DNA from: Terriglobia bacterium
Lineage (GTDB): Bacteria > Acidobacteriota > Terriglobia > Terriglobales > Acidobacteriaceae
Reading direction: 5' to 3'
DNA: 64,000 bases
Assembly: GCA_020072845.1 (NCBI GenBank)
Contig: JAIQGF010000008.1
Location: forward strand, 248,001-312,000
The translations under genes and the position numbers were made by a program. Shown here in pieces: positions 27,853-49,907 of the stretch. The first letter of the stretch is position 1; each line of letters begins with the position of its first letter. Under the pieces are notes generated by a model. The model had not been told where the DNA came from and did not search any database. It was given only the letters and a program-made list of their open reading frames with translations.

Positions 27853-29259
27853 ATGAAGATGCACAAGCAGGTCTCAATTCCAGCTCCCCGTTTCGACGAC
27901 GCGGAGGAGTGCGATACCCCGGCCGCGTGGGCCGCACGGCCTAACTCGCTGCAGGATATCGCCGATCTCGCGGTCAAAGTCACCGGCGCCGACGGCGCCG
28001 CCCTGGCGCTGGAGAATCCATCGGGCGACATCGTCTGCGCCGCTCGCAGTGGCGAGGGCGCACCGGCGGTGGGCGCGGTCCTGAATCGTTCCCTCGGAAT
28101 TTCCGCGTTTTGCGTTCGCAGGGGTGTGGTGCAGCGTTGCGCCGATACCGAGACCGATCCCCGGGTTGATGCCGAAGTGTGCCGGCGACTGGGAATCCGG
28201 TCGATCATGGTGCTGCCGCTGCGCCGCAACGGGCGGGTCGCCGGCCTGCTTTCCGTTTACTCCCGTTCCGCTTCGAAGTTCGATCATCAAGATGTGGCCA
28301 AATTGGAGTACCTGCAGTCGGTCGCCGCCGGACTCGCGGATGCCGACGAGGCGACGGCGCAGCTTGCCCCGGAACTGATTGCGGCCTGGCGCCCGCGCGA
28401 GGAACCTTGCATCGAAGCCGCACCGCCGGAGACAGCCCCGCCCCCGAAGATGGAAGCGACCGTTATTGATTTCCCGCAACCGGCGAAGGCGGGAGCCGAG
28501 CTTGAATCTCCGCTTGGCGACCGCGGTGCGCCCACATCGGCGCCGGACGCCGACGAGCTGGGCGGATGGCGGCAGCCGCAGAGGTCCGTGCCACGGTCGC
28601 GGACCTTGCTGATTGCTTTGGGAATATTTTCGATCGCAGCGCTTGCGTTGGCCGGGTTGAGGTTCACGAGAATGCACAGCAACGCCTCCCGCGTGCAACT
28701 GCCTCCGCCGGTGGTGATCAGCGAAACGCCGCCGAGTACGCCGTTCCCCCCGTCCGAAATTTTGCCGACGGCGCCGCCGCACAGCGTTGTCCACGACCCG
28801 GCAGCCGCGGCCACGGCGCCGGTCGCGGAAACCGGCGTGGGGCATGTGCAATCGATCACGTGGTCTTTGGTCTCGGGCTATGCGCGCATCGAGATTGGGC
28901 TCGATCGCAACGTGCAGTACACCGCCTCTCGGCTCGACCGGCCGGAACGAGTTTATTTCGATCTGCGCAAGACACGCTTTGCGCCCGGAGTGCGTTCCCA
29001 GGAAATCGCCGTTGCCGGACCGGCATTGCGTGGCATTCGAAGTTCGCAATACGCGCAGGACGTGGTCCGTGTCGTGCTCGATTTGAACACCCGGGCTGCT
29101 TACCGCGTCGAGTTTCAGGCCGATCCACCTCGGCTCGTGATCGAAATAGATTCCGGGCGTAAAGCGCCCCTCCGCACGGCCGATAGCCCCGCTGCTACGC
29201 CCAGGGCCAGCGCGGGCGCGGTGTCGGTGAGTTGGTCGTACTGGATTTGTGTCGGCTGA
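27853..29259 (+). CDS. GAF domain - transmembrane - AMIN domain fusion protein
   Basis: It is 468 residues. About 30-165 form a GAF domain (LQDIADLAVKVTGADGAALA, RSIMVLPLRRNGRVAGLLSVYS). A Pro/Ala-rich linker follows, then one membrane span at about 250-270 (LLIALGIFSIAALALAGLRF), a second Pro-rich linker, and a C-terminal AMIN domain (ITWSLVSGYARIEIGLD, VYFDLRKTRF, VRVVLDLNTRAAYRVEF). AMIN domains bind peptidoglycan or target pilus/envelope machines to it, and usually sit outside the membrane; the GAF part would be in the cytoplasm. It could sense a small molecule inside and bind wall outside, or the reverse. No kinase or cyclase output is fused. Confidence 0.85.
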   Translation: MKMHKQVSIPAPRFDDAEECDTPAAWAARPNSLQDIADLAVKVTGADGAALALENPSGDIVCAARSGEGAPAVGAVLNRSLGISAFCVRRGVVQRCADTETDPRVDAEVCRRLGIRSIMVLPLRRNGRVAGLLSVYSRSASKFDHQDVAKLEYLQSVAAGLADADEATAQLAPELIAAWRPREEPCIEAAPPETAPPPKMEATVIDFPQPAKAGAELESPLGDRGAPTSAPDADELGGWRQPQRSVPRSRTLLIALGIFSIAALALAGLRFTRMHSNASRVQLPPPVVISETPPSTPFPPSEILPTAPPHSVVHDPAAAATAPVAETGVGHVQSITWSLVSGYARIEIGLDRNVQYTASRLDRPERVYFDLRKTRFAPGVRSQEIAVAGPALRGIRSSQYAQDVVRVVLDLNTRAAYRVEFQADPPRLVIEIDSGRKAPLRTADSPAATPRASAGAVSVSWSYWICVG

Positions 29260-47720: not shown

Positions 47721-49403
<1,683 letters not shown>

Positions 49404-49907
49404 ATGGCGCAGCACAGCGCGACGCTGAATGTCGGGGACCGCGCGCCGGACTTTTCGCTGGCATCGGCGAACGGAATGGGCGAGGTATCGCTAGGAAGAT
49501 TGCTGGAGCGCGGGCCGGTGATCATCGAGTTCCTGCGCGGCACCTGGTGACCGAACTGCGTGAAGCGCATGGCTCAGGTTGAGCCGATCAAAGATGAACT
49601 GGCCGGGACGCCGTTGGTCTACGTCGCGGCGGAAAAGCGCGGTGGAATGTTCCATCCCGAAAAATATTTTGCCGAGCATCCCATCTCGTTTCCGTTCCTG
49701 CTCGACGAAGACCGGTGTGTGACCAGGGCGTACGGGGTGTACCACGCGATCGGAATCGACGCGCTCAACATTGCGCATCCGGCGACCTTCATCGTCGGAC
49801 GCGAAGGCAACATCCGCATGATCTACGTCGGCATGAACCAGCGCGACCGCATGCCGGTACAAGCAATTCTGGAAGTGCTCCGGGGAATCCCGAAGGAGGC
49901 AACATGA
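49404..49907 (+). CDS. AhpC/TSA-type redoxin, candidate selenoprotein with UxxC motif
   Basis: The frame from ATG 49404 reads MAQHSATLNVGDRAPDFSLA, ..VIIEFLRGTW, then TGA (49548-49550), then PNCVKRMAQVEPIKDELAG and on to HPATFIVGREGNIRMIYVGM, stop 49905-49907. Thioredoxin-fold peroxiredoxin-like proteins have Cys at the TGA position (RGTWCPNC), so reading TGA as selenocysteine gives GTW-U-P-N-C with Sec49 and resolving C52, 167 residues. A hairpin fit for a bSECIS starts 20 nt after the TGA. Without Sec insertion the product would be a useless 48-residue stub, yet the rest of the gene is fully conserved in frame. Likely a thiol/peroxide reductase. No sel genes lie in the window. The next gene overlaps its stop by 3 nt. 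Confidence 0.85.
49548..49585 (+). promoter_or_regulatory. Candidate bSECIS element (TGA plus downstream hairpin)
   Basis: TGA at 49548-49550, 20 nt spacer, then the perfect stem GGCTCA (49571-49576) / TGAGCC (49580-49585) closed by loop GGT. Bacterial SECIS elements are small stem-loops just 3' of the UGA, with the apical loop about 16-37 nt away and at least one G among the first loop bases. All of these hold here (loop starts 26 nt after the UGA and begins GG). Confidence 0.75.

Follow-up and report, generated by a model that had tools for sequence, protein, structure and literature searches.

A predicted UxxC selenoprotein of the Prx-like kind in Acidobacteriota, with a candidate bSECIS hairpin conserved among its relatives

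Introduction

Prx-like selenoproteins are predicted bacterial selenoproteins in which selenocysteine (Sec) stands in a UxxC or UxxU motif of a PF00578 domain, and their substrate is not known (PMC13188914, Table 1; "Prx-like 1" in PMC2398784). Their UxxC motif sets them against the Sec peroxiredoxins, in which the motif is TxxU (PMC13188914). UxxC proteins of both the Prx-like and the redoxin kind were already present in the 2008 ocean survey and in reviews of 2022 and 2026 (PMC2398784, PMC13188914). Reversions from Sec to Cys are rare, and the documented cases are mainly those of FdhA and SelD (2026 review, PMC13188914). In 2006, Acidobacteria were credited with only four selenoproteins from three families (PMC1794560), and our literature search on acidobacterial selenoproteins found no dedicated study.

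Here we describe a redoxin gene with an in-frame TGA, located in a window of 64,000 nucleotides (the whole stretch of DNA analysed; G000:C8:248001-312000). Judged from its sequence and that of its relatives, the gene very probably encodes a UxxC selenoprotein, with Sec49 inserted by means of a bSECIS element and SelB, which would most likely act as a Prx-like thiol:disulfide oxidoreductase.

The gene and its in-frame TGA

The features of the coding region are as follows.
49404..49907, + strand: full selenoprotein gene (predicted), 167 aa including Sec49, with its final stop TGA at 49905-49907; based on the orthologue alignment
49548..49550, + strand: predicted Sec-encoding TGA (Sec49), position 1 of UxxC; TGA in 51 of 52 orthologues of the order, TGC in the Cys form
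49557..49559, + strand: codon for Cys52 in UPNC, which is presumed to be the resolving Cys; invariant column in the orthologue alignment

Read from the ATG at 49404, the frame runs through 48 codons to the TGA at 49548-49550 and then through 118 further codons to the terminator. This TGA is the sole interruption of the redoxin frame, and it replaces the first Cys of WCxxC in the context RGTW-TGA-PNC. With a Cys put at the TGA, the protein matches PF00578 over residues 10-139 (1e-17, 64.7 bits with a cut-off of 26) and PF08534 over residues 10-148 (2.7e-17); since both matches cross the TGA, the two halves belong to one domain. Frame reading and Pfam thus bear out the original prediction of a single redoxin frame of 48 codons, TGA, and 118 codons, as well as its placing of the TGA at the first Cys of RGTW-C-PNC to give UxxC.

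Purifying selection acts with similar strength upstream and downstream of the TGA. In comparisons of the window's gene with its orthologues in sister species, omega is 0.17 upstream and 0.23 downstream for L012, and the corresponding values for L010 are 0.18 and 0.13. Among the Sec sequences, pS lies at 0.38-0.50 from codon -5 to about codon +12 around the TGA and at 0.57-0.85 elsewhere; this low stretch, which takes in the TGA and the hairpin described below, is the sole dip in synonymous divergence along the gene.

The hairpin downstream of the TGA

Two stem-loops, one a candidate bSECIS and the other more doubtful, were noted past the TGA.
49571..49585, + strand: bSECIS stem-loop (predicted), GGCTC-AGGTT-GAGCC; bSECIS rules, covariation at 2 of 5 pairs, synonymous dip
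49557..49569, + strand: TGCG-tgaag-CGCA, a short candidate hairpin that lies past the TGA and ahead of the SECIS stem; 97.5% of cells paired

The hairpin GGCTCAGGTTGAGCC at 49571-49585 begins exactly 20 nt past the TGA, as the original prediction had it, and an A-U pair can close its GGU loop. A check against the published bSECIS constraints (PMC13188914), which had been proposed along with the prediction, came out in its favour: the loop AGGTT, the stem of 5-6 bp, the spacing of 25 nt and the MFE of -8.9 kcal/mol (49570-49586) all satisfy the rules, with the bare 15-nt hairpin, at -7.4 kcal/mol, just short of the energy rule. Taken alone, the hairpin is unremarkable and could be due to chance. 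Of the 1793 TGAs on both strands of the window, 49 (2.7%) are followed at this distance by a perfectly paired stem of 6 bp or more, and the 43-nt fold has a z of -1.5 relative to shuffles. An Rfam scan of the region gave no match. The case rests on conservation across relatives and not on the single sequence.

An alignment of 50 distinct Sec sequences shows the five-pair stem to be 98% paired. At pair 25-37, 27 of the sequences have GC, 11 have GU and 12 have AU; at pair 27-35, 43 have UA, two have CG and five are unpaired, with a C-A mismatch. The other three pairs never vary, hence the covariation evidence comes from two pairs only. The covariation score of the stem is above those of all 500 shuffles and of all slid versions, and RNAalifold independently recovers the identical stem. 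With the covarying substitutions the encoded residue changes as well, from Ala to Thr or from Pro to Ser, and the pairing is nevertheless maintained. Distant acidobacterial homologues have hairpins of other sequence at about the equal place. The small hairpin at 49557-49569 is almost invariant and therefore yields little covariation evidence, and its pairing could reflect protein constraint only.

Selenocysteine machinery

In the mechanism that we propose, UGA49 would be decoded by SelB-GTP carrying Sec-tRNA-Sec, with SelB recruited by the mRNA hairpin (bSECIS) 25 nt downstream; if the hairpin were missing, translation would be expected to end after 48 residues. SelA would make Sec, and the selenophosphate for it would come from SelD, which in this genome is a predicted selenoprotein too. 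The original prediction had named the sel genes and tRNA-Sec as the machinery to search for, and the window's genome holds all of it: tRNA-Sec (66.8 bits; ARAGORN agrees and gives TCA as the anticodon), selA (563.7 bits), selB (364.7 bits) and selD (352 bits, in two stretches), the three genes all being over cut-off.

The selD frame of this genome itself contains a TGA (AAG-TGA-ASKL; L033:1471-2139, equal to G000:C11:217393-218031). SelD read through a TGA is known in other bacteria. Another SelD-like frame (L035, G000:C27:2058-2753; 318 aa, 69.9 bits, below cut-off) lies near selA on a shared contig. Among other candidates, a second probable selenoprotein of the genome is a redoxin with FYRGHW-TGA-PFC, again UxxC (L051:4173-4874, G000:C12 at about 28170-28870), and a third is an apparently secreted AhpC/TSA-like protein with FTGG-TGA-TTEM, which is TxxU as in Sec peroxiredoxins (L052:3881-4594, G000:C8 at about 215880-216590). 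In another family of the order, four redoxins (L024, L025, L026 and L028) have RGAW-TGA-PSC or RGLW-TGA-PFC and GC-rich hairpins, and by their sequences they would form a related but separate group of UxxC selenoproteins.

At the level of the order, 45 of the 51 Sec-form genomes carry selB (E <= 1e-65), compared with 121 of 345 genomes that do not have the redoxin gene (Fisher p = 3.5e-13, a guide only, as the genomes are related and not independent). Of the six Sec-form genomes without selB at this threshold, five contain selA; in the remaining one, selB is split into two pieces and is over cut-off. Five Sec-form MAGs have no selB match over cut-off.

Orthologues and the single Cys form

The orthologue was found in 52 of the 397 genomes of the order, 51 times with TGA and once (G356) without a stop, and 40 relatives gave twelve best orthologues and a split one in G004, each with a single in-frame TGA. 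A scan of the genomes of 84,980 species returned 19 orthologues, all of them in Acidobacteriota, 18 with TGA and one with TGC. Within the order, the signature of the group is EFLRGTWUPNC-x-x-RMAQ. Beyond the order, a phylum-wide sample contained 11 homologues in other Acidobacteriota families, each with one or two TGAs within the match; the six that were read have RGTW-TGA-PxC, with the TGA at the position of that in the window's gene. An equal gene with an equal TGA codon therefore recurs across the phylum, as expected of a real selenoprotein family. Frameshifts or other stops past the TGA, which would have spoken against the original prediction, were sought in the approximately 52 orthologues of the order. 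Two frameshifts turned up, one after the TGA (L071, G004:C13:171188-171668) and one before it (L070, G012:C185), both in draft MAGs and attributable to assembly error or decay, and the rest of the frames are open through the domain. Cys homologues, in turn, do align a Cys at the TGA, as had been anticipated, both in TWCPPC of 3kcm and in the TGC orthologue.

This TGC orthologue (L068) is one open frame in an Edaphobacter-labelled MAG; it and the locus of G356, both on 5,049-base contigs, are probably one record. It is syntenic with the Sec forms, lying between eno and a secreted-protein gene. No qualifying hairpin was found in the Cys form, and its genome, rated 100% complete, gave no selA and no selB match over cut-off. 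In a 54-row tree, which is midpoint-rooted and has long outer branches, the Cys row falls within the Terriglobales clade (98/93) and all outer rows are Sec. A Cys form at the syntenic locus, lacking both the hairpin and selA/selB, fits a Sec-to-Cys reversion, and one such change is the simplest reading of L068, which is a single case. We lean, with some reserve, towards the broader view that this phylum-wide redoxin family is essentially Sec-locked, Sec being ancestral as well as nearly universal and the lone Cys form a reversion whose lineage no longer has the sel genes or the SECIS. If so, the residues that follow the active site (MAQxEP, MAQxES, MTQxES) would owe their make-up to the RNA hairpin as well as to the protein. 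The group offers a clean natural test of the limits that SECIS pairing sets on coding sequence, and also a probable reversion from Sec to Cys that goes with the machinery's loss.

Alternative readings and predicted function

An in-frame stop, along with frameshifts in two relatives, is what a pseudogene or a sequencing error would produce, the Cys codon having mutated to TGA and the downstream half being a relic; yet the TGA is shared by 51 genomes of the order and by distant families, and selection holds the downstream half as tightly as the upstream one, which makes decay exceedingly improbable. Just as little weight can be given to the reading that the locus makes two separate short products, the first ending after 48 residues and the second, of 115, starting from GTG 49560. 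The downstream ORF from 49560 that the original prediction expected is indeed in the mechanical ORF list, ending at 49907, but a single thioredoxin-like domain would then have its two active-site residues on different chains, orthologues do not keep the GTG as a start (they have GTC, GTA, GTT, GCC, CGC and others), and the Cys orthologue is a single open frame. That a near-cognate tRNA puts another amino acid, for instance Trp or Cys, at the TGA, or that general readthrough passes it without Sec, is very unlikely. Our call of Sec is made on DNA, which leaves this reading some room; against it stand the presence of tRNA-Sec, selA, selB and selD, the covarying hairpin that obeys the bSECIS rules, the gene's own terminator at 49905, which is also TGA, and the sole Cys form, which uses TGC and whose genome yielded no sel genes. 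We have rejected these three readings on account of the conservation of the TGA, the downstream constraint, the unconserved GTG and the TGC orthologue.

Given a UxxC selenoprotein, its activity has to be judged from fold and motif. An AlphaFold2 model from an 11-row alignment (pLDDT 82.7, pTM 0.85) places residue 49 just before helix 50-66. The fold is thioredoxin-like, and Sec49, where its first long helix begins, would be the nucleophile; the U49 selenolate may attack a disulfide or a peroxide, to be resolved by C52 as a selenenyl-sulfide. In the PDB, the closest folds are those of BCP/PrxQ peroxiredoxins (2cx3, E 7.9e-12, 25% identity), which would suit an enzyme working mainly as a peroxidase. 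However, in the alignment to 2cx3 it is C52 that falls on the Cys of SPVC, which we take to be the peroxidatic Cys, with U49 three residues earlier, whereas TWCxxC proteins (TlpA/ResA-type) align their first Cys with U49 and give sequence matches as good as that of 2cx3. These alignments favour a Prx-like thiol:disulfide oxidoreductase. The protein does not fit the definition of the classical (Sec) peroxiredoxin, with Sec or Cys at the peroxidatic position in a TxxC/U motif; it does combine a PF00578 domain with UxxC, as Prx-like proteins do, and this division of motifs (PMC13188914) also speaks against a mainly peroxidatic role, which we regard as unlikely though deserving some weight. Hence, according to sequence and model, the protein is most likely a UxxC Prx-like/TlpA-like thiol:disulfide oxidoreductase and not a peroxiredoxin proper. 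The original prediction of a Sec-containing peroxiredoxin/thioredoxin-like enzyme accordingly stands for the Sec redoxin, as a prediction, with the one refinement that a peroxiredoxin proper is unlikely, the Sec being at UxxC and not at TxxU. No signal peptide or membrane anchor was apparent when the N-terminus was read by eye, so the protein is probably cytosolic.

Promoter and gene neighbourhood

A promoter-like pair of boxes lies directly before the start codon.
49367..49372, + strand: -35-like box TTGTGC; promoter-like pair in 39 of 51 orthologues
49390..49395, + strand: -10-like box TACAGT, separated from the ATG by 8 nt; same pair

The pattern shared by the 39 orthologues is TTGnnn-N16-18-TAnnnT, mostly TTGTnC-N17-TAnAGT, and since it abuts the start codon, it suggests that the mRNA of the selenoprotein may be leaderless. 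The 12 relatives checked retain all or part of the gene order gpmI, eno (divergent), redoxin gene, secreted protein, GH57, and in the closest ones the block goes on with LptF/G; the neighbourhood shows synteny and no functional link beyond that.

Comparison with known selenoproteins

A gene caller without Sec support would truncate the gene, and therefore this redox enzyme, which occurs throughout a major soil phylum, is probably absent from many annotations. Among protein families, the gene is below cut-off for every NCBIfam model matched. It resembles the SelL-related redox protein NF040769 (redoxin family related to selenoprotein; 9.7e-11, residues 14-115), but at 41.6 bits with a cut-off of 120 it is not a member, and with PrxU (NF040737, thioredoxin-dependent peroxiredoxin) it has the AhpC/TSA-type fold in common while scoring 15.2 bits with a cut-off of 270. 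In the TlpA/ResA-type proteins 3kcm and 3c71, Cys is found in place of Sec, T-W-C-P-x-C of 3kcm aligning with T-W-U-P-N-C; the acidobacterial protein differs from this type in having no apparent signal peptide or anchor. It is likened by domain and motif to the redoxin family selenoprotein (PF08534, UxxC; PMC13188914, Table 1), having both the PF08534 match and UxxC in common with it, and likewise to the Prx-like class, with which it has the Pfam domain, UxxC and a single Sec in common (PMC13188914, PMC2398784). In the ocean survey, Prx-like 1 comprised 225 Sec and 2,740 Cys sequences (PMC2398784), whereas the acidobacterial group, found here only in Acidobacteriota, has almost no Cys form. 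By its sequences, then, the group appears to be a subfamily of the known UxxC Prx-like kind, acidobacterial and with hardly any member that is not Sec, and nothing categorically new.
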